NCBI GenBank assembly: GCA_905182335.1
Contig: CAJJBE010000001.1
Coordinates: 124,001 to 188,000 of the forward strand
DNA from: Flavobacteriales bacterium UBA4466
GTDB lineage: Bacteria > Bacteroidota > Bacteroidia > Flavobacteriales_D > Crocinitomicaceae
Direction: 5' to 3'
Length of the DNA stretch: 64,000 bases
In this document: in pieces, positions 33,087 to 46,045 of the stretch
Numbering within the stretch: position 1 is the first letter of the stretch
How the letters are laid out: each line of letters opens with the position of its first letter
Made by a program: the position numbers and the translations under genes
Notes under the pieces: generated by a model
Database searches by the model: none
What the model saw: only the letters and a program-made list of their open reading frames with translations
Told to the model about the DNA's origin: nothing

Positions 33087-33123
33087 GGGTATGTTTTTTA
33101 CAACAGCTAAAAAGCAGAAAATA

Positions 33124-33177
33124 GTCCCGTGGTACAACTGAAGACTTTAGGGTATGTAGTTGAATCCACTCGGAAAA
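33124..33177 (+). pseudogene. Decayed tRNA-like sequence
   Basis: GTCCCGTGGTACAACTGAA matches the acceptor and D-arm of the tRNA that follows (17 of about 20 positions). TGTAGTTGAATCCAC-TCGG then matches a T-arm and part of the 3' acceptor strand. Roughly 20 nt covering the 5' side of the anticodon arm are missing, and the 3' acceptor is AAAA. It cannot fold as a tRNA. It is either a pseudogene of tRNA-Arg or of a tRNA-Gln-like gene. Confidence 0.55.
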
Positions 33178-33178
33178 T

Positions 33179-33252
33179 GGCCCCGTGGCGCAACTGAATA
33201 GCGCACTGGATTTCGGCTCCAGCGGTTACAAGTTTGAATCTTGTCGGGGTCA
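33179..33252 (+). tRNA. tRNA-Arg (anticodon UCG)
   Basis: A complete 74-nt cloverleaf. The acceptor GGCCCCG pairs with CGGGGTC (one G-U), discriminator A. D-stem GCGC/GCGC; anticodon stem CTGGA/TCCAG with loop TTTCGGC gives anticodon TCG; T-stem ACAAG/CTTGT. CCA is not encoded. Two normally invariant loop bases are changed together: position 19 is A (not G) and position 56 is T (not C), keeping a Watson-Crick tertiary pair. It is followed within 5 bp by a strong terminator and is the integration target of the island. Confidence 0.92.
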
Positions 33253-33256
33253 CTCT

Positions 33257-33298
33257 AGCGGAGAATTGGTTAAAATCAACTGGTTCTCCGCTTTTTAT
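33257..33298 (+). terminator. tRNA-Arg terminator (copy A)
   Basis: AGCGGAGAA (33257-33265) pairs with TTCTCCGCT (33284-33292), extended by a weaker inner stem, then a T-rich tract. The same terminator recurs with two substitutions at 44464-44510. Confidence 0.85.
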
Positions 33299-33304
33299 TT
33301 TTGC

Positions 33305-33557
33305 TAAATCCTCTGATAATAAAGGGATAGCGGAGAAAATAGAATTTACTCTTTTGGTTTGAACTTTGCCTTTTAACTTGTCGTAACCTATTCCGGATGG
33401 AAACACTAAACTTTGTATTTTCTTCTTTTGAGGTAAATCTCCAGAATCCCATAATTCACTCAGGTTAGAAGACAATTTTAATGCCTTATCTATTGCTATT
33501 TGAAGGTTTGAACTCGAAATTGTAGAACTGAATAAATTTGACTCTAACTTCTTTTCT
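33305..33557 (-). pseudogene. C-terminal remnant of a large serine recombinase
   Basis: The frame reads from the IS end leftwards (about 84 residues): helical start ESNLFSSTISSSNLQ, then QKKKIQSLVFPSGIGYDK and TKRVNSIFSAI. This is the characteristic C-terminus of Bacteroidota phage/island-type large serine recombinases. The resolvase domain and zinc ribbon are absent; the IS6 copy at 33558 truncates the gene. The open frame continues to 33107 only by reading through the terminator and antisense to the tRNA, so residues after the recombinase tail are probably not original protein. The position beside the tRNA fits an integrase at the end of its island. Confidence 0.65.
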
Positions 33558-34342
33558 GGTTCTGTCGCATTAACCAAATCTCAATCTAAAATTTACTGAT
33601 TGAGATTGAATTAAGCAGCTAAAGAACAAAATATTTTGAACGTCGTTTTTCTCGAATCAGCTATTTGACCCTTCCTAATTATATTGACAACTTCGATTCC
33701 AGCCAAAGTCCGCTTGGCTGATTCAAACTCCTTGAAACCCGTATCTATCGACATTCGCCTCTTGATGTTGCGGTCGTCTTGTTCCACTATATTGTTCAAG
33801 TATTTGCATTGTCGAATCCTAATTTTTCGCACTGTCAGTAGATCCCGGTTGATCGTCCTAATGCCAGATTTGTTTGCACCACTTTTATCGATATTTACCA
33901 CCCTTGGTTTTCCGTTATTACGAATGGCTTTACGCAGAAATAATTGTGCTGACCCTAGCATTCTGCGTTTGGTCAATAAGAAATCAACGGTGTTTCCAAA
34001 CTTGTCTACAGCCCGATAAAGATAGCGGTACTTACCTCCTACTTTGATATAGGTTTCATCCATTCTCCAACTTGAACAAACCTGTCTTTTTCTTTTGTGC
34101 ATGTTCTTTTCAATCTCAGGAGAGAATTTGAATACCCATCTTTGAACAGTAGAATGATCAACTTGAACTCCCCTCATCGAAAGTAGTTCTTCTACATCTC
34201 TGTAACTTAGGGTAAATCTCAGTTTAAGATAAACAGCATGAAGAATTACAACTCTGGGATACCGATGACGCTTGAACATAGTGCTGGGTTTTGGCTAAAT
34301 CTACGTATTTTGTAAATCAACCGAAGTTAATGCGACAGAACC
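33558..34342 (-). mobile_element. IS6-family insertion sequence, copy 1 (785 bp)
   Basis: Bounded by perfect 17-bp terminal inverted repeats (GGTTCTGTCGCATTAAC). It contains one transposase gene. No 8-bp target duplication is seen (left flank TCTTTTCT, right flank GTAAAAAG), as expected after IS6-mediated adjacent deletion or cointegrate resolution. It truncates the serine recombinase. A second copy in the same orientation is at 40629-41413. Confidence 0.93.
33611..34279 (-). CDS. IS6-family DDE transposase (copy 1)
   Basis: A 222-residue transposase. The N-terminal region (LRFTLSYRDVEELLSMRG) and the DDE core (D in WRMDETYIKV, D in VNIDKSGA, E in NIVEQ) are all present. Copy 2 differs at about 13 of 222 residues. 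The conserved histidine after the catalytic glutamate (EQDHR in most IS6 members and in copy 2) is aspartate here (EQDDR), which may reduce activity. Confidence 0.93.
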   Translation of the reverse strand: MFKRHRYPRVVILHAVYLKLRFTLSYRDVEELLSMRGVQVDHSTVQRWVFKFSPEIEKNMHKRKRQVCSSWRMDETYIKVGGKYRYLYRAVDKFGNTVDFLLTKRRMLGSAQLFLRKAIRNNGKPRVVNIDKSGANKSGIRTINRDLLTVRKIRIRQCKYLNNIVEQDDRNIKRRMSIDTGFKEFESAKRTLAGIEVVNIIRKGQIADSRKTTFKIFCSLAA

Positions 34343-34387
34343 GTAAAAAGTCCAATAGATTCTTTAAATTTAGGTTAAACCTATAGT

Positions 34388-34419
34388 GTGGATAAAGTGC
34401 ACTAGTACACTTTATCCAC
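34388..34419. promoter_or_regulatory. 32-bp near-perfect palindrome before the CotH-like gene
   Basis: Arms GTGGATAAAGTG and CACTTTATCCAC are perfect 12-bp complements, with an 8-bp centre that itself contains the palindrome ACTAGT. Only one base pair of 16 mismatches. It ends 18 bp before the ATG at 34438, so it is an operator or a 5'-UTR hairpin; there is no T-run for a terminator. Confidence 0.55.
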
Positions 34420-34437
34420 TTGCTATAAACTATTAAA

Positions 34438-35592
34438 ATGAAATCAGCACATATTCTTATTGTAACTTTAATATTAGTGATGTTCTCATGTGGGAATGAA
34501 AAACTACCATCACTAAACATAAAAAAAGGTGATGATTTTTCATGGAAAGTAAAAGAACCTTGCACAGTTATTTACTCTAATTCAGATACTCTTTCTGGAA
34601 AAATAAAATGCAGAGGAGGAATGTCAAGTAAATACTATAAACATTCATTTTCTCTTGAATTAAATAATAAATACTCGTTTTTAGGTCTACCTCGTGATGA
34701 CGATTGGATTTTAAATGCCAATTATATTGATAAAACATTTATGAGGCATAAAATTAGTTATGATCTTTTTATGGAAATGAATCCCAAAAATATTGCATCC
34801 CAAAGTACCTATATCAATGTTTATATAAACGATAAATATGAAGGACTATATGTACTAATGGAGAAGATTAACGGCGGAATAGTTGGTTTAAATAAGCATG
34901 ATACTTTAGCTATGTTATTTAAAGATCCTCCCATTTTCACAGAAAAAAAGCTATCATATGTTCAAGATTCGTTGAATTACTATCAGCAAAATTTTCCAAA
35001 AGTAACCGTATCCGACAAAACGTACTACATTGATAAATTCAAAGATTTTCTGTTTAATTCCAGTGATAGTGAATTTGCTCAAAACATTTCAAACTGGGTG
35101 GATATAGAGAATGTAATTGACTGGCATATAATTCTATTATTTTCAAATAACTCAGATGGGATAATGAAAAATTTCTATTTTTATAAACTTGATAAAAACA
35201 CACCATTCAGATTTGCAATTTGGGATTACGACCATTCATTTGGGCGCGATGGAGACAATGAGCACAATTTAATGGAACGAGAACTTGATTGTAATAGGTC
35301 TATATTATTAAAACGACTAGTAAATATACCAAGCATTGGTTACTTAGACAAACTAAAAAAAAGATGGTTTGAGCTTCGAAAAGAGAATATTATTTCTACA
35401 AAAAAATTTAAACGACACATAGATGAAAATGAAAAAATAATTAGAAGCGAAATTGAAAAAAATTTTGAGAAATGGCCAGTTAATGGCAAGTGGTATTATG
35501 ACAATAATAATTACGAACAAGAACTTGATTTAATTCAAGATTTTGTAAAAATTAGGATTCGACAACTTGATGAATACTTCAATAACCGTTAA
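34438..35592 (+). CDS. CotH-kinase-family lipoprotein
   Basis: A 384-residue protein with a lipoprotein signal (VMFSC, cysteine 18). GKIKCRGGMSSKYYKHSFSL matches the CotH RGNSS...K-S-Y nucleotide-binding start. DDDWILNANYIDKTFMRHKISYDLF is the second family block. FAIWDYDHSFGRD (D263, D265) is the catalytic/metal block. CotH proteins are atypical kinases first known from spore coats and also found as surface proteins in other bacteria; the substrate is not known here. Base composition is lower in G+C than the core genes. It follows the IS end and palindrome. Confidence 0.85.
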   Translation: MKSAHILIVTLILVMFSCGNEKLPSLNIKKGDDFSWKVKEPCTVIYSNSDTLSGKIKCRGGMSSKYYKHSFSLELNNKYSFLGLPRDDDWILNANYIDKTFMRHKISYDLFMEMNPKNIASQSTYINVYINDKYEGLYVLMEKINGGIVGLNKHDTLAMLFKDPPIFTEKKLSYVQDSLNYYQQNFPKVTVSDKTYYIDKFKDFLFNSSDSEFAQNISNWVDIENVIDWHIILLFSNNSDGIMKNFYFYKLDKNTPFRFAIWDYDHSFGRDGDNEHNLMERELDCNRSILLKRLVNIPSIGYLDKLKKRWFELRKENIISTKKFKRHIDENEKIIRSEIEKNFEKWPVNGKWYYDNNNYEQELDLIQDFVKIRIRQLDEYFNNR

Positions 35593-35636
35593 TAACATAC
35601 AATTTACCGTCAACACTACATAGCATAAAACATGAT

Positions 35637-35813
35637 ATGATAAAACAAATTTATAGGTTTTTAAACCCAAAATTCCAAAATTTATTTCTTGAGTATAAGG
35701 TGGATTTCAAACCACGATATGGACACGGAAAACCAGCTCATCAGGGTTTATACGAAATTATTGATTCAAATCGTGATAACTACAAATATTTGATTGGAAA
35801 AGCCTTTGGTTAA
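35637..35813 (+). CDS. Short ORF (58 aa), possibly an N-terminal gene remnant
   Basis: ATG at 35637, stop TAA at 35811-35813, 44 bp after the CotH-like gene. The sequence starts MIKQIYRFLNPKFQNLF and contains KPRYGHGKPAH and NYKYLIGKAFG. The RYGHGKP segment is reminiscent of the start of some class I methyltransferase-like proteins, and the abrupt end suggests a truncated gene, but this is a weak impression. I do not assign a function. Confidence 0.4.
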   Translation: MIKQIYRFLNPKFQNLFLEYKVDFKPRYGHGKPAHQGLYEIIDSNRDNYKYLIGKAFG

Positions 35814-35897
35814 ACTGTAAATTAATAGAGTGAGTTTGTAAACATCTTTAAATACAGGTAGATCATAATATAATGCCATAACATGTGTTCTTAATAT

Positions 35898-35928
35898 AAA
35901 ATGGAGGGCAACGCCCTCCATTTTTCAA
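35898..35928. terminator. Bidirectional rho-independent terminator
   Basis: AAATGGAGGGC-AAC-GCCCTCCATTT, an 11-bp perfect stem with A- and T-runs on both sides. It separates the rightward CotH unit from the leftward collagen-like operon. A second small hairpin (ACCGC/GCGGT, 35933-35945) follows on the minus-strand side. Confidence 0.85.
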
Positions 35929-35995
35929 ATTTGACCGCTACGCGGTAAAAAAACCATAACTTAAAAAATAGTTAAATGGATAAATTGATAAATAG

Positions 35996-36979
35996 TTAAA
36001 AAGCCCTGACCGAACGAACGACGTTGTCGTCGTCCTTAAGGTAGTTGCCCTGGGTACCATTGGTGAAACCCTGGTCCCACACATTGTCGTAATCGCTCTC
36101 CGTAGAACTCCAATAGTAGACACTAGCAAAACCGCCAACTGCTAACTGCTGCAAGTACATTTCATTTAATTCGTATTTTGTTGGCAATCGCCAATCTCTG
36201 AATTTTTGTCCATTAACTGAATGATTGGATGGGTTTAAAATCAAGTTTTGAGCTTCATACCATGTGGCGGTTCCTTGATCTTGCGTTTCAGCCACAAGGC
36301 CGTGTTTACCATCTGCAGAAACCCAAAATACGTAGCCACCTAACTCTGGCCATAAGCCGATTGTGTAGGTTGGAGAACCATTCACAACATAAGGGTCACC
36401 AACCGTTCCAGTTCCTGTGATGGTGACGTTCGTACCAGCTGTTGTCACACTACCTTGGCCATCTAAGCCTGTTGCACCAACTGCGCCGTCATTTCCTATT
36501 GGTCCTTGTGGGCCTGTTGCGCCATCGACACCATCAATACCGTCGTTACCTGCTGGTCCTTGCGGTCCTACTCCATTTCCAGAAGTTTTTGCATACAGTG
36601 CGTAAGGAACACTCATTAGTTGACTTGTGCCCATAACTGTGTAACTTGTTCCGCCTGTAACATCTGCAGCAGTTTCTATAAAGTAAGGTCCATTTCCCCA
36701 GTCAATGGTTGTAAAGTCATACGATGTAGTACCTGTTCCTATTTCTAGATTCACCAAACCATAAGCATTCGATGTAACAGAAAAAGTTTCCGAATAAGCA
36801 GCTGTACCTCCAACACTTCCTTGTTGGATGGTCAATTGCATCCCAACAGCTTGGTTGTTCAATATAAGGTTACCTGCATCTCTTACGACCGCTTGGTATT
36901 TAAACCCTTCCGGTGCTTGACCGAAGGAGCTTAGTGAAAGTGTTGCTATCGCAACTAGTGATAATAATATTCTTTTCAT
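35996..36979 (-). CDS. Secreted collagen-like/DUF1566 (Lcl-type) protein
   Basis: A 327-residue protein with a signal peptide (SLSSFG-Q21). Residues 22-130 form a beta-rich domain (PEGFKYQAVVRDAGNLIL) common in Bacteroidota surface proteins. Residues about 136-176 are a collagen-like Gly-X-Y run (GPQGPAGNDG and similar, about 13 triplets). Residues 200-327 are a DUF1566/Lcl C-terminal domain (FRDWRLPTKYELNEMY, YYWSSTESD, NVVRSVRAF). In Legionella, Lcl binds glycans; here a surface adhesive role is an inference. It follows the T9SS gene by 3 bp, so one operon. Confidence 0.85.
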   Translation of the reverse strand: MKRILLSLVAIATLSLSSFGQAPEGFKYQAVVRDAGNLILNNQAVGMQLTIQQGSVGGTAAYSETFSVTSNAYGLVNLEIGTGTTSYDFTTIDWGNGPYFIETAADVTGGTSYTVMGTSQLMSVPYALYAKTSGNGVGPQGPAGNDGIDGVDGATGPQGPIGNDGAVGATGLDGQGSVTTAGTNVTITGTGTVGDPYVVNGSPTYTIGLWPELGGYVFWVSADGKHGLVAETQDQGTATWYEAQNLILNPSNHSVNGQKFRDWRLPTKYELNEMYLQQLAVGGFASVYYWSSTESDYDNVWDQGFTNGTQGNYLKDDDNVVRSVRAF

Positions 36980-36982
36980 GGT

Positions 36983-37471
36983 TTATTGTTGTTTAATAAG
37001 TTTAAATGTTTTTCGTTTCGGCGAGCTCAACGACCCTTTACTTCCTTCTTCGAATATTAATTCAAGTGAATACGCTCCTGGAGCCAATTCACTTACTTGA
37101 ATGGGTGTTTGCTCTGCAGAAAGAATGTCCTGCATTACCAATTTTCCCTGTGCATCATACAGTGTGTAGGTCACATTCTCGAACGTGCTTGTTCTGATAT
37201 TCAATACATCTTCTGTTGGGTTGGGGTAAATAATGGCTTCGTAGTTGGGAGCAAAATCCTCCACACCTAAAAAGTTCCAGTTCGTTTGATGGAAACCTTG
37301 CGTTAGGTCGTTAGTTCCATCGGTTCCTGTAGCTATAATCACTTCGCCAATCGTAAAGTCGATGTTGCCACTTGCGTTGGAATAAGAATCTCCTTGAGTG
37401 GATACGACTTCCTGTGCTGAGACAGATAAGGTAGCAAATAGTGAAAATAGTACGAATGTGATTTTTTTCAT
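36983..37471 (-). CDS. Small T9SS type A cargo protein
   Basis: A 162-residue protein. A signal peptide (LSVSAQ, residue 20) precedes a short N-terminal region (GNIDFTIGEVIIATG) and a full type A sorting domain (IIYPNPTEDVLNI, YTLYDAQGKLVMQ, LAPGAYSLEL, KTFKLIKQQ). Most of the protein is the sorting domain, a class common in Bacteroidota operons where it precedes a collagen-like protein. It may act as a surface accessory to the downstream protein. Its upstream region contains a (TG)11 tract. Confidence 0.85.
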   Translation of the reverse strand: MKKITFVLFSLFATLSVSAQEVVSTQGDSYSNASGNIDFTIGEVIIATGTDGTNDLTQGFHQTNWNFLGVEDFAPNYEAIIYPNPTEDVLNIRTSTFENVTYTLYDAQGKLVMQDILSAEQTPIQVSELAPGAYSLELIFEEGSKGSLSSPKRKTFKLIKQQ

Positions 37472-37515
37472 AAGTATCTAATTTAGAGGGTGAAATTACA
37501 ACAAAAAACCCAAAT

Positions 37516-37537
37516 TGTGTGTGTGTGTGTGTGTGTG
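37516..37537. repeat. (TG)11 dinucleotide repeat
   Basis: Eleven uninterrupted TG units (CA on the coding strand) located 45-66 bp before the start of the T9SS/collagen-like operon. Such tracts change length by slipped-strand mispairing, and this position could alter promoter spacing. Confidence 0.95.
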
Positions 37538-37783
37538 CTTCGACTGGCTCAGCAGAACTGTTTAGAAAAGGAAGAAATGGTTATAACATTGGCTAAAAAC
37601 CATACGGGTTTATGGCTTCGAGAGATTATTTAAAAGTGAAAAAACATATGCGAAAGCTCGTCGCTTTCTTTTATCTTCGAGAAATAAATTTTGGTAAATG
37701 AGCCGCAAGGTTCCTAGCCTGAGCCGTTAGCACAAGAATTCATCGTGATCTAGCTTTTTATGATTTCCAATATCTTTGAAAAA

Positions 37784-37821
37784 TCCTCAAAAAAGTTTGA
37801 ACTCTGTCCTGCCGGGGTCAC
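37784..37821 (+). repeat. 38-bp tRNA-3'-end-like element B (candidate attachment-site scar)
   Basis: Starts TCCTCAAAAAAGTTTGAACT and ends CCGGGGTCAC, the last part identical to the tRNA-Arg acceptor end. Elements C and D have the same 38-bp length. The distance from GTTTGAA to GGTCAC is 5 bp longer than in the tRNA, so it is not a tRNA fragment that folds. Confidence 0.7.
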
Positions 37822-37830
37822 GATTAGCAA

Positions 37831-37858
37831 AAGCCTTTCTTATAGAGAGGCTTTTTTT
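37831..37858 (+). terminator. Terminator following element B
   Basis: AAGCCTTTC / GAGAGGCTT hairpin with loop TTATA and a T7 run. Confidence 0.8.
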
Positions 37859-37956
37859 AATCTGGTTATTCTATATCTTTTTGCCATCAAACAATACATA
37901 GATGTCCAAATATATTTTTTTTCCTCATATTTCGTTTGAATAACTACTATTTTACC

Positions 37957-38508
37957 ATGAAATTTTTAACCAAAATCATTTTAATCTTTTGTTTTATATT
38001 GATTTCTATGAACAATCAAGTATACAGCCAACTTGAAAGTAAGATGCTGGACCCCGAATCTAAAATATCTAACGATGTACCGTGGTCATTAAGTTTGAGT
38101 GCGAATCACATGAATTTTGCTATACCGAAAACAGGGAACTTTTTGAGTTCTTCAGTCAATGCAGGTTACACTATGAAACGAATTTCATTCTCTGGGTGGA
38201 CAGGTATCTCTGTAATGGCAGAGAATGGAAATCTATATCCTTACTTTGGAGTTTCAGCTTCACAACCCTTTATAAAATGGAGTTTAATGAACAGGGAATC
38301 TAAACCATTCTCATTAAGTATGAATGAAGCACTGACCTGTTTCTATCATCCTACATGGGATTACTTTTTAAACATCACACTCAATCCTTCATATTCCTTT
38401 AAGTCCTTTTGTTTTACGTCTTGGATTGGATATGCCAACAACCTAGAGTTATTTAAATCATTCATGACTTTCGGATTTTCAGTGACCAAAACTATATATA
38501 ATTGGTAG
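37957..38508 (+). CDS. Secreted protein of unknown function (possible small beta-barrel)
   Basis: The frame opens at a TTG (37936), but the ATG at 37957 gives a clean signal peptide (MKFLTKIILIFCFILIS...VYSQ) and is preferred, for 183 residues. The mature part has alternating aromatic/polar strands (SLSLSANHMNF, ISFSGWTGISV, LYPYFGVSASQPF, FMTFGFSVTKTIYNW) and ends on tryptophan, compatible with an outer-membrane beta-barrel. No known family is recognised. It is a low-G+C island gene between elements B and C. Confidence 0.6.
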   Translation: MKFLTKIILIFCFILISMNNQVYSQLESKMLDPESKISNDVPWSLSLSANHMNFAIPKTGNFLSSSVNAGYTMKRISFSGWTGISVMAENGNLYPYFGVSASQPFIKWSLMNRESKPFSLSMNEALTCFYHPTWDYFLNITLNPSYSFKSFCFTSWIGYANNLELFKSFMTFGFSVTKTIYNW

Positions 38509-38638
38509 TTGTGAGATAAGGATAAGATATTCTATTTAAATAACTACGGTTCTAATTTTAACCTATTCAACAAAATTTGATAAAATCAGGGCTATTTTTT
38601 CAGTCTTATTTAATAAATTGTCAAACTAAATAATTCTT

Positions 38639-39601
38639 ATGCTCAGAAATTTTTTATTTCTAATAACAACTATAGCTTTCCAAGCTTGTACAAATCAAGA
38701 GCATCAAGAGGAAAGTACGCAAAATGTAAATGAGCCATTGCAAATAAATGGGGATTCAACAGGTGTTGATGGTAAAGCTGATAAGGTGGTAATTAAAACA
38801 TTTAAGCCAGGGCATTTTTATACAGAAGAAGATTTAGAGACATTGTCATTCAGTTGGGATGTATCAGCTTCAGACGAACGGTTTAATTTAGATTGGACAA
38901 ATGGTGTTCAATGGTTCTCACTGGATCAATCTAAAGATGTGGGTTGCGCGTTTGGCGAGGGGACAAGGCCATATATCCATTTGTCAGGAGGAGACAGGCA
39001 TGAGGGAGGGGTAAGTCTTTTTGGGATACTTCAAAATGATTCTACAATTCATGTCTTAGGTTCCTATGTTAATGACGTTTCTGAGGGTGATTTGTTAAGA
39101 GCACATAATTTTAACGGTGTGGATTGTTTGGTCGTTTTAAATGCTGATACAACTTTTAAATCGGTTATTGTGGATGCGAATCTTGATTTAGGTAATGATG
39201 AAGATATTAGTGTGCAAAAGAATTTAGCCGGTAGATGGGGTGATCCGCATTTCGGCAATGAAATAGAGTTTTTCAATAGCGGTAGACGTGTAATTTGGAA
39301 CGGTGAAGAGAAACAGTTTCATTTCGAAAGTGGAGAATACGAACAGCTCTTAGATGTTTTTACGGTAGAAGAAGATTCATACTATTTTAAGAGATCTGAT
39401 GGGGTTCAAACTCAAAGGTTTGGTGTTTACGAAGGTCAGCCTAGTAGGCTGGCACTTTATAAAATAGACAAGGAAAAAGACGATTGGCAAAATCTTGATT
39501 ATGTACCCGAATATTTTGATACTGAGTATTTGTTACAAGAACCATCCAAAGAATTATCATTCGAGATGTTTAAGAATGAGCTTAAGGCTATCTTCAAATA
39601 A
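38639..39601 (+). CDS. Lipoprotein of unknown function
   Basis: A 320-residue protein with a lipoprotein signal (AFQAC, cysteine 17) and a low-complexity linker (EESTQNVNEPLQ). The folded region starts near residue 65 (FSWDVSASDERFNLDWTNG) and is beta-rich with repeated acidic turns; the end is helical (SFEMFKNELKAIFK). I do not recognise a family. It lies 130 bp after the previous island gene and reads in the same direction, ending about 98 bp before element C. Confidence 0.6.
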   Translation: MLRNFLFLITTIAFQACTNQEHQEESTQNVNEPLQINGDSTGVDGKADKVVIKTFKPGHFYTEEDLETLSFSWDVSASDERFNLDWTNGVQWFSLDQSKDVGCAFGEGTRPYIHLSGGDRHEGGVSLFGILQNDSTIHVLGSYVNDVSEGDLLRAHNFNGVDCLVVLNADTTFKSVIVDANLDLGNDEDISVQKNLAGRWGDPHFGNEIEFFNSGRRVIWNGEEKQFHFESGEYEQLLDVFTVEEDSYYFKRSDGVQTQRFGVYEGQPSRLALYKIDKEKDDWQNLDYVPEYFDTEYLLQEPSKELSFEMFKNELKAIFK

Positions 39602-39699
39602 ATTTTACAGATATATGGTGCAAATAGGAAATCATGAACACCGAACTCCTACGAAGGTCTTTAACCATTTTTCAAGGAAGTTACGACAACGCTTTAAGG

Positions 39700-39737
39700 T
39701 CCTCCAAAAAGTTTGAACTGTCGCCTTCTGAGGTCAC
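39700..39737 (+). repeat. 38-bp tRNA-3'-end-like element C
   Basis: Starts TCCTCCAAAAAGTTTGAACT, ends CTGAGGTCAC. Same length and layout as elements B and D. Confidence 0.7.
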
Positions 39738-39744
39738 AAAATAT

Positions 39745-39783
39745 AAAGCCAATCACCTATATAATAGGTGATTGGCTTTTTTA
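39745..39783 (+). terminator. Terminator following element C
   Basis: A perfect 16-bp stem (AAAGCCAATCACCTAT with its complement), a 3-base loop and a T-run. It is one of the strongest terminators in the window. Confidence 0.9.
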
Positions 39784-39842
39784 ATTCCCAACATGTTCCC
39801 GACATCAACTTGAAAAAACTTGATTAATCAGTTTAATAGAGA

Positions 39843-39877
39843 TAAAAAAAGCCCCTCATTACTGAAAGGCTCTTAAT
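39843..39877 (-). terminator. Terminator of the lipoprotein gene at 39891
   Basis: On the minus strand AGCCTTTC pairs with GAGGGGCT (with wobble) around AGTAAT and is followed by T7. Confidence 0.65.
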
Positions 39878-39890
39878 GATAGAACGTTTA

Positions 39891-40505
39891 CTATTCCATT
39901 AAATAAGGCATTTTTTTACTTGCTTTTCTCATCATTTCATCCACTAGTCTTGATGGACTACTTCCCAATCCTCCAGAAAATTTATGGTCATAATTCCAAA
40001 TTAATTTTTTCCCAGAACAATCAGTAATATTTAAAGAAACACGAATTTCGTTGGTAGCACCTGCTCCTCCTAATACTGCAAGAGCAATTGCGGCACCATT
40101 TGACATAGGTTTAGACAAAGCGAAATTAGAGCCTATAATTCCATCAACACCAAGAACTTCACAAAGTTCACTTGGAGTCATTGCTTTTTCTGGATAACCA
40201 GCATTAATTAATTTTGCATTAGTTGTTTGCACATCTAGTATTTCTTGGGTCAATTTACCCTGCGACTTTCTTTTGAGCATCCATGCGTACATTTCTTTTT
40301 GAAAATTTAAAGACTCCGTTTTTTGTTGTTCTTTTATCGCTTCCGCGTCAGTTTTTCTACTCGCAGCAATTGAAACCGAAGGTGGTACTATTGCAATTGT
40401 TTTATGTGAATGAGCAACTGGAATTGAATCTTCGCTGTAGTATATTTTGGCGCAAGAAGAAACTATAAATAATAATGCGAAAATAGATAGTGGTAGTTTT
40501 TTCAT
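39891..40505 (-). CDS. Lipoprotein of unknown function (possible CsgG-like fold)
   Basis: A 204-residue lipoprotein (FIVSSC, cysteine 18). The start of the mature domain, SHKTIAIVPPSVSI, and the later LGVDGIIGSNFAL, NEIRVSLNITD and KKLIWNYDHKF segments recall the beta-alpha-beta layout of CsgG/GNA1162-type periplasmic lipoproteins, but I cannot assign the family. Its first codons and upstream region (61 bp) are duplicated 83 bp away, directly against IS copy 2. Confidence 0.65.
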   Translation of the reverse strand: MKKLPLSIFALLFIVSSCAKIYYSEDSIPVAHSHKTIAIVPPSVSIAASRKTDAEAIKEQQKTESLNFQKEMYAWMLKRKSQGKLTQEILDVQTTNAKLINAGYPEKAMTPSELCEVLGVDGIIGSNFALSKPMSNGAAIALAVLGGAGATNEIRVSLNITDCSGKKLIWNYDHKFSGGLGSSPSRLVDEMMRKASKKMPYLME

Positions 40506-40629
40506 AATAATGTTAGTTTTTAGTCTTTAAGATGCTGAATGTAAGTTATAAATACCATTTAAAAAATTGATAGTGGTAGTTTTTTCATAATAATGCTAGT
40601 TTTTAGTCTTTAAGATGGTGAATGTAAGT
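40486..40629. repeat. 61-bp direct repeat at the IS boundary
   Basis: 40486-40546 and 40569-40629 are identical except for two bases. The repeat includes the start codon region of the lipoprotein at 39891. The second copy ends exactly at the left end of IS copy 2, where the first continues into unrelated sequence. Confidence 0.9.
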
Positions 40630-41413
40630 GCTCTGTCGCATTAACCAAATCTCAATCTAAAATTTACTGATTGAGATTGAATTAAGCAGCTAAAGAACAA
40701 AATGTTTTGAACGTCGTTTTTCTCGAATCAGCTATTTGACCCTTCTTAATTACATAGACAACTTCGATTCCAGCCAAAGTCCGCTTGGCTGATTCAAACT
40801 CCTTGAAGCCAGTGTCTATGGATATTCGCCTCTTGATGTTGCGGTGGTCTTGTTCCACTATATTGTTCAAGTATTTGCATTGTCGAATCTTGATTTTTCG
40901 CACCGTCAGCAGATCCCGGTTGATCGTCCTAATGCCAGATTTGTTTGCACCACTTTTATCGATATTTACCACCCTTGGTTTTCCGTTATTACCAATGGCT
41001 TTGCGCAGAAATAATTGTGCTGACCCTCGCATTCTGCGTTTGGTCAATAGGAAATCAACGGTGTTTCCAAATTTATCCACGGCTCGGTAAAGATACCGGT
41101 CCTTACCTCCTACTTTGATATAGGTTTCATCCATTCTCCAACTTAAACAAACCTGCCTTTTTCTCTTGTGCATGTTTTTTTCTATCTCAGGAGAGAATTT
41201 GAATACCCATCCTTGAACAGTAGAATGATCAACTTGAATTCCCCTCATCGAAAGTAGTTCTTCTACATCTCTGTAACTTAGGGTGAATCTCAGTTTAAGA
41301 TAAACAGCATGAAGAATTACAACTCTGGGATACCGATGACGCTTGAACATAGTGCTGGGTTTTGGCTAAATTTACGTATTTTGTAAATCAACTGAAGTTA
41401 ATGCGACAGAACC
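40629..41413 (-). mobile_element. IS6-family insertion sequence, copy 2
   Basis: About 785 bp. The right inverted repeat is intact (GTTAATGCGACAGAACC, 41397-41413); the left end is eroded at its outer three or four bases (GCTCTGTCGC instead of GGTTCTGTCGC). No target duplication is seen. Same orientation as copy 1, so the pair has the layout of an IS26-type pseudo-compound transposon carrying 6.3 kb. Confidence 0.9.
40682..41350 (-). CDS. IS6-family DDE transposase (copy 2)
   Basis: A 222-residue transposase with an intact DDE triad (D in WRMDETYIKV, D in VNIDKSGA, E in NIVEQDHR). It is about 94% identical to copy 1 and keeps the EQDHR histidine that copy 1 lacks, so this copy is the more likely active enzyme. 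Confidence 0.93.
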   Translation of the reverse strand: MFKRHRYPRVVILHAVYLKLRFTLSYRDVEELLSMRGIQVDHSTVQGWVFKFSPEIEKNMHKRKRQVCLSWRMDETYIKVGGKDRYLYRAVDKFGNTVDFLLTKRRMRGSAQLFLRKAIGNNGKPRVVNIDKSGANKSGIRTINRDLLTVRKIKIRQCKYLNNIVEQDHRNIKRRISIDTGFKEFESAKRTLAGIEVVYVIKKGQIADSRKTTFKTFCSLAA

Positions 41414-41464
41414 GGTATCAGAAATAAACGATTAAAACACTACTGCATTTTATCAGTTGAAATC

Positions 41465-41491
41465 GGTTAAATTTGGTAGATGCGGCAGAAC
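41465..41491 (+). mobile_element. Possible remnant of a related IS end
   Basis: GATGCGGCAGAACC matches the IS inverted repeat core AATGCGACAGAACC at 12 of 14 positions, 70 bp beyond the right end of IS copy 2 and just before the next gene. It suggests an earlier insertion of a related IS. Confidence 0.4.
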
Positions 41492-41506
41492 CCTTAATTG
41501 TTTGAT

Positions 41507-43105
41507 ATGTTTCGAAATAATCCACAAATAATAGCTTTCGGCTTTCTCCTAATAATGATAAATATGTTGGTAGGTTGTACCTTCTTCAAGGTTTCTACTA
41601 ATGAGATAACCTCTGAACAGCTCGAAATTACCAAAGAAGATTACATTATTGTCCATACTCCTCAGGGCGAAGTGTATCATCTAAATGATATAAATATTGA
41701 TACTGAAAAGAATGAAATAACGGGGGTCAAGGAGAAGATTGATGAAAAACATCATTTATTGAAAGATGTTTCTTCTAGGGGGAATAGATACAAACCGAGG
41801 TTGAATCCGCGTCATGATGAGTTACATATATATGCAAAAGTAAATGAAGAAATTTCGACGGGTCATATTAAGATTCTAATTAAACACATATCTAAAGTAG
41901 AGGTCTACAATAAACAAACTGGAGTGTTAATTCTCCAGTATGTAGGTGGAGCTGTGGTTTTCGTTGGTGTCGCCTTTATTATTCTTTTCTTAACTAAATC
42001 GTCCTGTCCATTCATTTATACGTTGGACGAGAATGATTACAATTTTCGTGGTGAAATATATGGTGGTGCCATTGCTCCAAATTTAGAACGTGATGATTAT
42101 ATGCCATTACCTGGGTTCAATTCGATTGACAGTCTATTCAAACTGAAAATAACTAATGAGCTTAAAGAAAGACAGTATACAGATATAGCAGAACTATTAA
42201 TGGTAGAGCATGCAAATGATATGGAGGTACTTATGGATAGTTACGGAGTACCTTATTCATTAAAACACCTTGTATCTCCGAGAACTGCTAATACTGATCT
42301 AGGAAACGACTATCTATCTGAGATTAAAACCCATGATGGTGTTGCGTATCAGTTTTTTGATGAAACGATTCAAAATAAAGACTTCAGCAGTATCGATTTA
42401 AGTTTCATTTCGACTGGTCAAACAAATCAAATGAAACTAATTCTTGACCTAAAAAACACCATTTGGTTGGACCATACTTTCGAACGTTTTGGATCTTTAA
42501 TGGGAGACCAATACGATCGAATATCTTCAAAGCAAAAGCTCGTCCCTGCTGAACAAAAAAATCAATGGTCAAAAGACGAGGGAATCATGCTCGCTGTTAA
42601 ATTGAAAACAGCCAATGGTTGGAGGACAATCGACTATATAAATACCATTGGACCACTTGCATCTCGAAGTATTGTCGTGCCTATTGAAGCTGATTGCCGA
42701 GCGGGAGATGAATTAATTGTTCGTCTAGAGTCTGGCTATCATTTTTGGGAAGTGGATTATGCCGCTATGGATTTTACTAAAAATGATTCATTAGAAATCA
42801 AACGACTTCCTTTGTTAACAGCAGTAGATGAAAACAATATTGATCTAATGTCTGCAATTGCCTGTCAAGATGATACTTATTTGGAACAACCTTACATCGG
42901 AGCAGAAGCAATTTTGACATTTGATGGTCGTCCTACCGTTCAAAGTGAAAAAAAGTCGACTTTCTTCTTACATACGCGCGGATATTATGAATATATTCGT
43001 GATTATACAGGGAAACCTAATATTTCGGAACTGAAAAAATTTAATTTGACCGGTACATTTGCTCGTTTTGCAAAAGCACGGTTTTCACAAATAGCAGGTT
43101 TATAA
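41507..43105 (+). CDS. Membrane-anchored lipoprotein with SCPFIYTLDE domain, partner of radical SAM gene
   Basis: The frame opens at TTG 41498; ATG 41507 is preferred, giving 532 residues. A lipoprotein-like signal (MLVGC) is followed by about 115 residues of extracytoplasmic domain. A hydrophobic segment (about 143-165) precedes SSCPFIYTLDENDYNFRGEIYGGAIAPNLERDDYMPLP, a conserved motif of uncharacterised bacterial surface proteins. The C-terminal half is beta-rich. The radical SAM gene starts 18 bp downstream, so the two form an operon. The function is unknown; the conserved cysteine could be a modification target, but that is speculation. Confidence 0.7.
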   Translation: MFRNNPQIIAFGFLLIMINMLVGCTFFKVSTNEITSEQLEITKEDYIIVHTPQGEVYHLNDINIDTEKNEITGVKEKIDEKHHLLKDVSSRGNRYKPRLNPRHDELHIYAKVNEEISTGHIKILIKHISKVEVYNKQTGVLILQYVGGAVVFVGVAFIILFLTKSSCPFIYTLDENDYNFRGEIYGGAIAPNLERDDYMPLPGFNSIDSLFKLKITNELKERQYTDIAELLMVEHANDMEVLMDSYGVPYSLKHLVSPRTANTDLGNDYLSEIKTHDGVAYQFFDETIQNKDFSSIDLSFISTGQTNQMKLILDLKNTIWLDHTFERFGSLMGDQYDRISSKQKLVPAEQKNQWSKDEGIMLAVKLKTANGWRTIDYINTIGPLASRSIVVPIEADCRAGDELIVRLESGYHFWEVDYAAMDFTKNDSLEIKRLPLLTAVDENNIDLMSAIACQDDTYLEQPYIGAEAILTFDGRPTVQSEKKSTFFLHTRGYYEYIRDYTGKPNISELKKFNLTGTFARFAKARFSQIAGL

Positions 43106-43123
43106 AACAAATTCTTCTAACTA

Positions 43124-44368
43124 ATGTCTTACGCTCAAAAAAATGTCACTTCAGAATTTGCTTTGAGAGATTCTATTAAGCCTATAGATATTGATTACTC
43201 CAAAATTCGAGCTTCGAAAAAACAAAAAATTATCTTTGGAGCTCGTAAGCGAAAATTACATCGTATACGTCTTCTGAAAAATACAATTATCATTGCTAGA
43301 TTGTATCGAACTCCAGGAAGAGTGATACGGATTTTAAACTTAATTCGAAAACGTCGTAACTCCTTAGCAGGAGGGAATAACGTGTACAAGGTTGTTTCAA
43401 TTGCAAACAAGCATTTTTGGCGAATCAATATTCCAGCATGGGAATCTCCACTCTTTTACATGTTTTTGAAAAGTGAACTACATCGACTTGAGCCGCATAA
43501 TTATTCAACACATCGTTTAACCTTGACTTATCTAGCAATCACGAAGAAATGTCCATTAAAGTGCGAGCACTGCTTCGAGTGGGATAATTTGAATAAAAAA
43601 GAAAAAATAAGCACAGCAAATATTGATACTATGATTGAAAATCTTCAATCAATTGGATCAACCAATATTGCCTTTACAGGAGGAGAACCAATGTTACGGG
43701 TTAATGAAATTATTAGTGCAATTAAGAAATACAAGGATAAATCAGCATTTTGGGTTTTAACTTCGGGATTCAATTTTACATCTGAAAATGCTCATGCTTT
43801 AAAATCTGCTGGTCTTACTGGAGTTGTTGTAAGTATTGATCATCATGATTCCTATCAGCATGACATATTTAGAATGTCTGAAGGTTCATTTAGGGATGCT
43901 GTAACTGCTGTAAAATATGGGATTGAAAACGATTTAGTCACCGTAATATCAACTTGTATTACAAAGGTTAATGCCACAAGGGAATATATTGATGAATTTA
44001 TGCGCTTTTCAAAAGATTTAGGCGTTGGATTTGTACAGTTTTTAGAGCCTAAACCTGTTGGACACTATGCTATGAAAAATGTAATGTTGAAGCCTGAGCA
44101 ATTAAAGTTGCTTGAAGAAGTTTTTTTGTCTTACAATAAGGAGGCCGAATATAGAGATTTCCCTATCATTGTCTACCATGGTTTTTACCAAAGACGGGTT
44201 GGCTGTATGGCCTCCGGAAATAGAATGGTATATGTTGACACTAATGGAAACTTCATGAAATGTCCTTTTTGTCAAAATAAAAAAGGTAGTCTTTTAGATG
44301 AAAACTTCGAGTCCATGATTAATGAAATGAATACCGAAAGTTGCTCAGACTTTGGAAGTTTTGTTTGA
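43124..44368 (+). CDS. Radical SAM protein with SPASM-like C-terminal cysteines
   Basis: A 414-residue protein. The first 120 residues are very basic and helical (RKRKLHRIRLLKN). The [4Fe-4S] motif CPLKCEHC is at C143, C147, C150, and GGEP at 186-189 contacts S-adenosylmethionine. The barrel follows to about 330. Four further cysteines, C361, C380, C383 and C407, in a YVDTNGNFMKCPFC context resemble a SPASM/twitch auxiliary cluster, typical of enzymes that modify peptides or proteins. No short precursor-peptide gene is visible nearby. The partner lipoprotein upstream is the obvious candidate substrate or scaffold. The C-terminus ends soon after C407, so mild truncation cannot be excluded. Confidence 0.85.
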   Translation: MSYAQKNVTSEFALRDSIKPIDIDYSKIRASKKQKIIFGARKRKLHRIRLLKNTIIIARLYRTPGRVIRILNLIRKRRNSLAGGNNVYKVVSIANKHFWRINIPAWESPLFYMFLKSELHRLEPHNYSTHRLTLTYLAITKKCPLKCEHCFEWDNLNKKEKISTANIDTMIENLQSIGSTNIAFTGGEPMLRVNEIISAIKKYKDKSAFWVLTSGFNFTSENAHALKSAGLTGVVVSIDHHDSYQHDIFRMSEGSFRDAVTAVKYGIENDLVTVISTCITKVNATREYIDEFMRFSKDLGVGFVQFLEPKPVGHYAMKNVMLKPEQLKLLEEVFLSYNKEAEYRDFPIIVYHGFYQRRVGCMASGNRMVYVDTNGNFMKCPFCQNKKGSLLDENFESMINEMNTESCSDFGSFV

Positions 44369-44422
44369 TTACATTAGTTAAGTCACTTTAATTAAAAAAT
44401 AAATGAATATAAGATATTTATA

Positions 44423-44460
44423 TCCTCCAAAAAGTTTAAACTCTCGTTAGCCGAGGTCAC
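44423..44460 (+). repeat. 38-bp tRNA-3'-end-like element D (candidate attR)
   Basis: Starts TCCTCCAAAAAGTTTAAACT, ends GCCGAGGTCAC. It continues into a copy of the tRNA terminator, and 55 bp from GGTCAC onwards differ from the tRNA locus by two substitutions and one indel. Confidence 0.8.
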
Positions 44461-44463
44461 TCT

Positions 44464-44510
44464 AGCGGAGAATTCGTTAAAATTAACTGGTTCTCCGCTT
44501 TTATTTTTTT
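44464..44510 (+). terminator. Duplicate of the tRNA-Arg terminator
   Basis: AGCGGAGAA (44464-44472) and TTCTCCGCT (44491-44499) with a T-rich tail, matching 33257-33298. It marks the right boundary of the 11.2-kb island. Confidence 0.85.
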
Positions 44511-44899: not shown

Positions 44900-46045
44900 A
44901 TGAAAACAATTAATTTAACCCTAATTTCTATAACGGCCCTCTTTATAACAAGCTGTACTGAAGAAGCGTCTATAAATATTTCCGGAAGCGCTCCAGGCCG
45001 AAATGAGATAAACAAACAAATAGAATCTCATAAAGTTGAAACGATGGCAGAAATTATAGATGATGACTTACCAATAATTAAAGCAATTGGAGGAGATGGT
45101 AAAAGTATTGATTGGGAGGAAATAGAAAAGGAAAACCTAGAGGGTGATTATGGTCCTGACTATTTTTACAATGATTGCGCACAAGGGATTGAAGTTCTCC
45201 AAATATCATCTAGACTTTCAAATCAAGGTAATTCTTCCTATGGAAAAGATCAGTTAACTGATGATGACCCCAAAACTGCATGGGTAGAAGGAAAAGCAGA
45301 TTACGGTATTGGCGAATCCTTCACAGTAAAAGGCTTTTGTCCTAATACTATATATAATGGCTATCAAAGTAGCCCGTCTAATTGGAAAAACAACTCAAGG
45401 GTCAAGCGTTTTAAAATATATGTTAATAATAGTCCTTATGCATATTTAGATTTAACCGATGAAATGGGAATTCAGAGATTTGATGGGCCTTATGGAGAGT
45501 ATGAAGGCTCTGATGAATTTAAATTTGAAATAGTTGATGTTTACAAAGGTGTAAAATGGTCTGATGTTGCTATTTCTCATATAGATTATATTGCTTGTTG
45601 TTTTGCGTTAGAAACTGAAATTTTGGCAAGTGATATAAATAAAGGAAATCTGAAAGAAGGTGACAATATTTATACTGTAGATATTTCTACAGGCGAAATA
45701 TCTGAAGGATCTATTCAGAAAATGAGTTCAGAAAAACACGTCAATGTTGTTGATTTACATACAGCAAACCACAACATTAAGATTACCAAAAACCATCCAT
45801 TATTTTTTGAAAATATTGGTTTTATTTCACTAGAGCAATTACAAAAAAATCTAACACTAGATATATATAGTGATCTTTCCAGGTACCCTAGAGTTTTAAC
45901 CATTAATAAAACCACGAAAGAAATTGAATATGAAAAATTGACTAGATTAATAGACTTGAACGATGTTATTAAAACATATACAATTAGAAAAGTTTCTAAT
46001 AACTCTAATTATATCGCAAATGGTTTTATTTGCAAACCTTATTAA
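44900..46045 (+). CDS. Lipoprotein with discoidin-like domain and C-terminal Hint (hedgehog/intein) domain
   Basis: A 381-residue lipoprotein (ITSC, cysteine 19). Residues about 90-230 form an F5/8-type or NADase-glycan-binding-like domain (SSYGKDQLTDDDPKTAWVEG, KRFKIYVNNSPYAYLDL). A Hint domain starts at C234 (CFALETEIL), with KITKNHPLF as block B and a C-terminal NYIANGFICKPY. The usual terminal His-Asn of inteins is absent, so the domain may make the N-S acyl shift and cleave or transfer the N-terminal part, as in hedgehog and bacterial intein-like proteins. This predicts release of the surface domain. The activity is inferred. Confidence 0.75.
   Translation: MKTINLTLISITALFITSCTEEASINISGSAPGRNEINKQIESHKVETMAEIIDDDLPIIKAIGGDGKSIDWEEIEKENLEGDYGPDYFYNDCAQGIEVLQISSRLSNQGNSSYGKDQLTDDDPKTAWVEGKADYGIGESFTVKGFCPNTIYNGYQSSPSNWKNNSRVKRFKIYVNNSPYAYLDLTDEMGIQRFDGPYGEYEGSDEFKFEIVDVYKGVKWSDVAISHIDYIACCFALETEILASDINKGNLKEGDNIYTVDISTGEISEGSIQKMSSEKHVNVVDLHTANHNIKITKNHPLFFENIGFISLEQLQKNLTLDIYSDLSRYPRVLTINKTTKEIEYEKLTRLIDLNDVIKTYTIRKVSNNSNYIANGFICKPY

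Follow-up and report, generated by a model that had tools for sequence, protein, structure and literature searches.

A lipoprotein and a twitch-type radical SAM enzyme encoded by a co-inherited gene pair in Bacteroidota

Known radical S-adenosylmethionine (SAM) enzymes that have a protein or peptide partner include the anaerobic sulfatase maturase anSME, which acts on a large exported protein, and the sporulation killing factor maturase SkfB, a twitch sactisynthase with a peptide substrate. Among curated families, the name of the NCBIfam model TIGR04133 (rSAM_w_lipo) indicates a radical SAM/SPASM protein that accompanies a lipoprotein. In PMC6231123, anSME is described as binding two auxiliary clusters, and SkfB as combining a twitch domain that holds one auxiliary cluster with an RRE domain of its own for the peptide substrate. 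The gene pair analyzed here encodes a lipoprotein and a radical SAM enzyme and lies in the window, a 64,000-nucleotide stretch of Flavobacteriales bacterium UBA4466 (assembly GCA_905182335.1, contig CAJJBE010000001.1, positions 124,001 to 188,000). The two genes are a unit co-inherited in Bacteroidota beyond chance, and what is new in this unit is a lipoprotein that matches no curated model searched, together with its paired enzyme. A radical enzyme so closely paired with an envelope lipoprotein offers a testable case of radical chemistry on the cell envelope.

The window enzyme is like SkfB in predicted fold (Z 25.8) and in a putative twitch domain with one auxiliary cluster, but its N-terminal part consists of basic helices where SkfB has the RRE domain, and its partner is a 532-amino-acid lipoprotein, with no shared precursor seen, rather than a peptide. 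Likeness to anSME (Z 21.1) would extend, in the reading favored below, to action on a large exported protein; however, the window enzyme has four C-terminal cysteines where anSME binds two auxiliary clusters, and the partner matches no Pfam family and so is no sulfatase, the substrate of anSME. TIGR04133 belongs to the same superfamily as the window enzyme, which scores 58.4 bits against the cut-off of 425, and the window lipoprotein matches no NCBIfam model. The top-scoring model for the enzyme is GeoRSP (TIGR04303, radical SAM/SPASM), at 87.4 bits against a cut-off of 400. Among the 25 best NCBIfam models listed, none was matched above its cut-off, and membership in a curated radical SAM family, TIGR04133 included, was rejected on this ground; for 69 other enzymes, NCBIfam gave E-values without cut-offs. 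Literature searches, judged on titles and abstract openings and with limited subscription coverage, found no description of such a lipoprotein-radical SAM pair, in agreement with a first-pass annotation of the window that knew of no described system of this form. The two genes lie where that annotation had placed them, with the 18-bp gap that it gave, and both are intact and on the same strand (Table 1); an in-frame TTG lies upstream of the ATG start of the lipoprotein gene, at 41498.

Co-occurrence of the two families was assessed in 240 genomes of the window's taxonomic family (lipoprotein E ≤ 1e-3, enzyme E ≤ 1e-30). The lipoprotein was found in 29 genomes and the enzyme in 28, all of which lie within the 29 (Fisher p = 1e-35); the sole genome with the lipoprotein and without the enzyme, G200, is an assembly of ~400 contigs that is 80% complete. 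Among 395 genomes sampled from the phylum, where both the enzyme and a strong lipoprotein match were called at E ≤ 1e-25, the enzyme was present in 12, and nine of these also have the lipoprotein (Fisher p = 4e-15). At this threshold G378 carries the lipoprotein without the enzyme, and the search returned many weaker lipoprotein relatives in genomes without the enzyme.

A scan of named genomes covered the best 80 of 159 confirmed stretches and used patterns from six paired lipoproteins, which biases it toward paired types. In 77 of these 80 loci the enzyme gene adjoins the lipoprotein gene, downstream and on the same strand, and the aligned-end gap exceeds 150 bp in five of the 77 (265 bp at most). 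The three exceptions are L150, with a lipoprotein near a contig edge, and L110 and L173, without an adjacent enzyme; whole-genome searches for all three, in assemblies whose completeness is not stated, gave only remote radical SAM matches. Close spacing on the same strand (-44 to 22 bp) was found in 18 of 26 listed lipoprotein-enzyme pairings and leaves no space for an intervening gene. Adjacency and co-occurrence together uphold the linkage on which the first-pass annotation had staked its proposal. All but two of the scan loci carry Bacteroidota titles; the two are L153 (Candidatus Delongbacteria) and L127 (uncultured bacterium). The pair was found in Flavobacterium, Hymenobacter, Rufibacter, Segetibacter, and many uncultured Bacteroidota, and its presence in named isolates opens it to experiment.

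Gene trees were compared for 92 of 121 loci, namely those in which a simple open reading frame (ORF) caller found both genes at full length; the enzyme genes of L138, L156, L164, and L174 escaped this caller and were recovered by tblastn, and it also overlooked a hydroxylase gene in L147. Distances in the two trees correlate with r = 0.84, against a maximum of 0.24 in 1000 shuffles, shared descent being uncorrected in this comparison. The lipoprotein gene comes first in 75 loci and the enzyme gene in 13, and the two are opposed in four. With the remote L077 and L078 set aside, the enzyme-first and opposed loci form an exact split of the lipoprotein tree, and the corresponding split of the enzyme tree differs by two loci. 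The window falls in the lipoprotein-first group, whose motif is mostly CPFxY; in the other group it is mostly CPHxY. An explanation in which the genes are neighbors by descent only, with unrelated functions, can point to members of each family that occur without the other adjacent, but it is scarcely credible in view of both gene orders, the tight spacing, and the near-perfect co-occurrence.

The window enzyme matches PF04055 at 68.9 bits (cut-off 29.5), which places it in the radical SAM superfamily. All cysteines named in the first-pass annotation are present. The CX3CX2C residues C143, C147, and C150 are invariant in 70 aligned relatives, as is an extra core cysteine, C278. After the core, the only cysteines are those of the pattern C361-x13-G-x4-C380-x2-C383-x23-C407, in which C380 and C383 are invariant across the same relatives and C361 and C407 are at least 90% conserved; L060, L066, and L075 lack C407, and L077 and L078 lack C383. 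One of these four residues precedes a predicted hairpin and two just follow it. SPASM domains are described as typically holding two auxiliary clusters (PMC9012708) and twitch domains as holding one (PMC6231123). Since four C-terminal cysteines fit a single auxiliary cluster, the enzyme is assigned to the twitch type, so that the radical SAM part of the earlier assignment stands and its SPASM label is dropped. The protein thus probably carries a SAM-cleaving [4Fe-4S] site plus one auxiliary cluster, the latter judged from the cysteines.

The predicted enzyme structure (mean pLDDT, the predicted local distance difference test score, 93.6) matches SkfB best, with a root-mean-square deviation (rmsd) of 3.1 over 290 residues at 17% identity. 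SuiB (Z 22.9), viperin-like proteins (22.4), BlsE (22.2), and anSME follow, with GDGT-MAS at 18.4; matches within 1 Z were treated as tied. In the model, the N-terminal part consists mostly of helices 39-61 and 64-82, and no peptide-binding domain was recognized in it, this part not having been searched alone. The highly basic N-terminus reported earlier was recovered (net charge +21 over residues 1-130), and in a set of 94 relatives the part preceding the core has a mean charge of +12.8 per 100 residues, against -0.4 in the core itself, which suggests membrane attachment. The pair has also been considered as an island-borne variant of the antiviral, viperin-like nucleotide enzymes. In a defense-gene scan (PADLOC) that covered five window proteins, pVip profiles matched the enzyme (E 9e-17, 59.4 bits; PADLOC output gives no cut-off), viperin-like folds reach Z 22, and the window copy does lie on an island; the profile match is nevertheless limited to the shared radical SAM core (residues 138-294), non-viperin NCBIfam models score higher (87 vs 59 bits), and the four extra C-terminal cysteines and the envelope partner make such an origin very improbable.

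The partner protein has a signal peptide in which a predicted helix (residues 6-21) precedes the lipobox cysteine C24, and it is accordingly classed as a bacterial lipoprotein with predicted lipidation. The strict lipobox pattern is present in 63 of 83 window-type proteins, and C24, C167, and P168 are invariant in 76 aligned lipoproteins. In the predicted structure (mean pLDDT 90.0, predicted template modeling score 0.74), an N-terminal beta domain is followed by a hydrophobic helix (138-163), by C167-P168, and by a C-terminal region (~167-497) containing a jelly-roll part (252-427). The helix sits just before the SCPF motif, and in 118 of 119 relatives the CP residues follow a strongly hydrophobic stretch of 19 residues. 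The description of this protein as membrane-anchored therefore holds, but with two elements, the lipobox and the hydrophobic helix. Both motifs noted at first pass were located, SCPFIYTLDE at residue 166 and GGAIAPNLERDDYMPLP at residue 186.

Beyond the window protein itself, a search of 76 lipoprotein family members against Pfam gave only scattered weak matches; a PDB sequence search with the lipoprotein returned nothing convincing, and a fold search with the whole lipoprotein gave no match over its full length. The part 252-427 best resembles a phage baseplate protein (Z 11.6, rmsd 3.3, 134 residues) and also CBM35 (Z 10.3), CBM6, and Eph ligand-binding domains (~10). The modeled jelly roll is a common fold, and its likeness to carbohydrate-binding modules shows no function. 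Three sets of lipoproteins were compared for residue conservation: 80 of the window type whose loci contain the enzyme, 22 belonging to the second paired type, and 10 whose genomes gave no enzyme match. Sixteen positions, such as G187, Q223, T225, W320, G410, and F413, are conserved only in the two paired sets; they are not claimed as target residues, since they also separate subfamilies.

The best mechanism for the pair, to which we assign a probability of roughly 0.4, is a membrane-bound maturase acting on the partner lipoprotein. The enzyme would probably be held at the inner face of the cytoplasmic membrane by its basic N-terminal helices. There, a 5'-deoxyadenosyl radical would most likely install a modification on the lipoprotein while the latter is still accessible on the cytoplasmic side, ahead of Sec export or in the course of it. 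The envelope would then be where the matured lipoprotein acts, accompanied in certain lineages by a fatty-acid hydroxylase or a barrel-like secreted protein, whose linkage is observed and whose roles are presumed. Anaerobic sulfatase maturases, which act on exported sulfatases, provide a precedent. Maturation of the lipoprotein is favored because an enzyme tied to its substrate explains most simply an asymmetric dependence: in the 28 family genomes the enzyme never occurs without the lipoprotein, and the lipoprotein occurs without the enzyme in G200, L110, L173, and distant relatives. It is favored also because no shared linked precursor was seen among ORF clusters of at least 35 amino acids, and the tree correlation, the split of the trees by gene order, and the close spacing of the two genes speak for it as well. 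The presence of two lipoprotein matches and one enzyme in G041, G065, and G183 has been counted for this mechanism, as has the modeled fold, whose closest solved relative is the peptide modifier SkfB, with SuiB and anSME among the next. Should the lipoprotein prove to be the substrate, the range of exported proteins matured by radical enzymes would widen beyond sulfatases. A wider proposal remains tentative, namely that across the Bacteroidota a membrane-bound twitch enzyme carries out the radical maturation of a full-sized, lipid-anchored envelope protein, not of a peptide or sulfatase, and that dedicated fatty-acid hydroxylation and outer-membrane barrels are tied to it in some lineages.

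Several observations weigh against lipoprotein maturation. No target residue can be named, and C167-P168 is equally conserved where the genome lacks an enzyme match. The asymmetry depends on the strict enzyme threshold, and three of the 12 phylum genomes with the enzyme have no strong lipoprotein match: G278 and G497 have a weaker one, on a contig other than that of the enzyme, and G259 has none. Shared descent by itself also raises the tree correlation. The nucleotide and sugar-nucleotide enzymes among the fold matches, viperin-like and BlsE, tie with SuiB. The charges flanking helix 138-163 put the positive side differently between subgroups, which bears on topology, and if the C-terminal domain folds outside the cell, modification would have to come before export. 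Lipid-type enzymes are linked to the pair in several lineages, and a basic N-terminus suits a lipid substrate as well. The suggestion made at first pass, that the enzyme modifies the lipoprotein, is thus borne out in its linkage; no compelling target residue has emerged, and the lipid-type neighbors fit a lipid or small-molecule substrate equally.

The possibility of a substrate encoded elsewhere was considered together with the remaining ORFs of the loci. Besides the pair, no cluster of ORFs of at least 35 amino acids recurs in more than 24 of the 121 loci, and around the window pair there are only ORFs of 21-46 amino acids. In line with the earlier statement that no short precursor lies nearby, no shared one was seen among these clusters, which cover ORFs of at least 35 amino acids. 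An enzyme that modifies an unlinked protein or peptide, with the lipoprotein serving as membrane scaffold, chaperone, or product receptor, would agree with this lack of a shared linked precursor, and since no peptide-binding domain was recognized in the N-terminal part, the partner may supply recognition. Such an arrangement is unlikely: no other cluster is common to more than 24 of 121 loci, a count that covers linked genes, no search having been made for substrates encoded at other places in the genome.

Among the neighboring genes, 22 of the 92 pairs have a fatty-acid hydroxylase gene (PF04116) no more than 1.5 kb away, versus ~0.5 expected, the expectation being derived from 113 hydroxylases in 27 chosen genomes (~122 Mb) at ~6 kb per locus. 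These 22 loci are related by descent and so are not independent, but their layouts differ; Fitch parsimony counts nine changes. The hydroxylase gene is directly downstream of the enzyme gene in many loci. In L060 (5367-10551) and L066, a gene that we take to be GNAT-like, a hydroxylase gene, and a desaturase gene lie between the enzyme and lipoprotein genes; the two genes of the L075 pair adjoin each other, with these three kinds of gene next to them, the GNAT-like label in all three loci being without Pfam support. KASIII-like genes occur with hydroxylase layouts in L105 and L169, and epimerase/3-beta-HSD-like genes lie beside some pairs. A hydroxylase tree was built from 25 linked proteins, which form one BLAST cluster, and 21 background sequences (20 hand-picked from the 113, plus L181). 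In this tree, 23 of the 25 linked proteins group with six background sequences in a clade of 29 members (support 0.80); one of the six, L214, is on the same contig as L147, just behind the L147 pair. The window genome has three hydroxylase matches, of which L181 lies outside the linked clade and L182 and L183 gave no match to that clade. The hydroxylase was rejected as a core component, as ~70 of the 92 pairs have none nearby and that of the window genome is not in the linked clade.

The main rival to lipoprotein maturation, and a close one, is that the enzyme modifies a membrane lipid or another small molecule, that the jelly roll of the lipoprotein binds, presents, or carries the product in the envelope, and that the barrel-like and hydroxylase neighbors are parts of one pathway with it; with a lipid as substrate, the pair would lead to an envelope lipid of a major phylum that has yet to be described. 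The excess of hydroxylase genes in differing layouts argues for this explanation, although the shared descent of the 22 loci means that they are not 22 independent events, and the pairs without a nearby hydroxylase include that of the window (the gene in L147 was missed by the ORF caller). Likewise, the placement of nearly all linked hydroxylases in one subclade is in its favor, but the window genome's hydroxylase placed in the tree falls outside. The desaturase, KASIII-like, and epimerase/3-beta-HSD-like genes, the strongly basic N-terminal part of the enzyme, and the presence of the lipid enzyme GDGT-MAS among its fold matches are also consistent with a lipid substrate, yet a pathway enzyme would not require such strict pairing with one lipoprotein.

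Barrel-like secreted proteins adjoin the lipoprotein in 33 of 92 loci, and those scanned gave no Pfam match; the putative term barrel-like reflects our reading of a signal peptide and a C-terminal pattern. In L052, L053, L055, L056, and L062, a conserved block of genes lies beside the lipoprotein or the pair. Its members are presumably nucleotidyltransferase-like, PEP-synthase-like, and epimerase-like, names taken from the sequences, with Pfam applied only to an epimerase relative from L057.

Table 1. Features of the gene pair and of the island that carries it (window coordinates)
Feature	Position	Strand	Remarks
Partner lipoprotein, 532 amino acids	41507..43105	+	ATG start, intact open frame; parts from alignment and predicted structure
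Intergenic gap, exactly 18 bp	43106..43123	+
Twitch-type radical SAM enzyme, 414 amino acids	43124..44368	+	Intact open frame
tRNA-Arg(tcg)	33179..33253	+	3' end is the island boundary
58-nt direct repeat, proximal att-like copy	33245..33302	+	Over tRNA 3' end and 3' flank
58-nt direct repeat, distal att-like copy	44452..44509	+	83 bp past the enzyme stop
ORF for C-terminal end of large serine recombinase	33107..33577	-	Aligned 33174-33520
Insertion sequence (IS) copy 1, DDE_Tnp_IS240 transposase	33561..34343	-	Recombinase truncated beside this copy; ends from alignment
IS copy 2	40632..41414	-	95% identical to copy 1; ends ~90 bp before lipoprotein start; ends from alignment

The pair forms the distal cargo of a ~11.2-kb island at tRNA-Arg in the window (33179-44509), which the sequence features in Table 1 identify as a putative tRNA-targeted island. 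The island location proposed at first pass is thereby confirmed by the 58-nt boundary repeats at tRNA-Arg(tcg) and the recombinase remnant. The two repeat copies are 91% identical, and a 19-mer taken from the repeat matches the window twice, with no match in any of 100 shuffles. Because the tRNA and its 3' flank are conserved in relatives, the distal copy is probably the duplicate. The recombinase remnant gave no significant Pfam match in the window, and a recombinase of 534-555 amino acids is present at the same tRNA in three genomes of the same genus (L188, L191, and L193); the two of these proteins compared with Pfam both match Resolvase (E 4e-27 and 9e-27). A tRNA without a recombinase in genome G123 (L189) is not claimed as an empty site, as its downstream genes match the window only partly. 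Other cargo of the island includes a CotH-kinase-like protein (PF08757, E 6e-51) at 34438-35592, and a tandem 83-nt duplication (89% identical) at 40464-40629 stands immediately before IS copy 2. Just outside the island, the region 44900-46045 encodes a single protein that has a PF25302 NADase-translocation F5/8-type domain (E 8e-28) together with an intein-splicing-like PF14890 match below the cut-off.

That the pair usually resides on an island was rejected on tRNA counts in other loci. A tRNA was found in eight of 58 named loci scanned, lying within ~1 kb of the pair in three (L128, L131, and L180), and in one of 25 further loci, more than 2 kb from the pair. In L018, from genome G128 of the window's genus, an enzyme-first pair with a barrel-like neighbor ends ~70 bp from the 3' end of a tRNA-Arg(acg) gene (3889-3963), hinting that tRNA-Arg sites may have acquired the pair twice, once in the window and once in L018.

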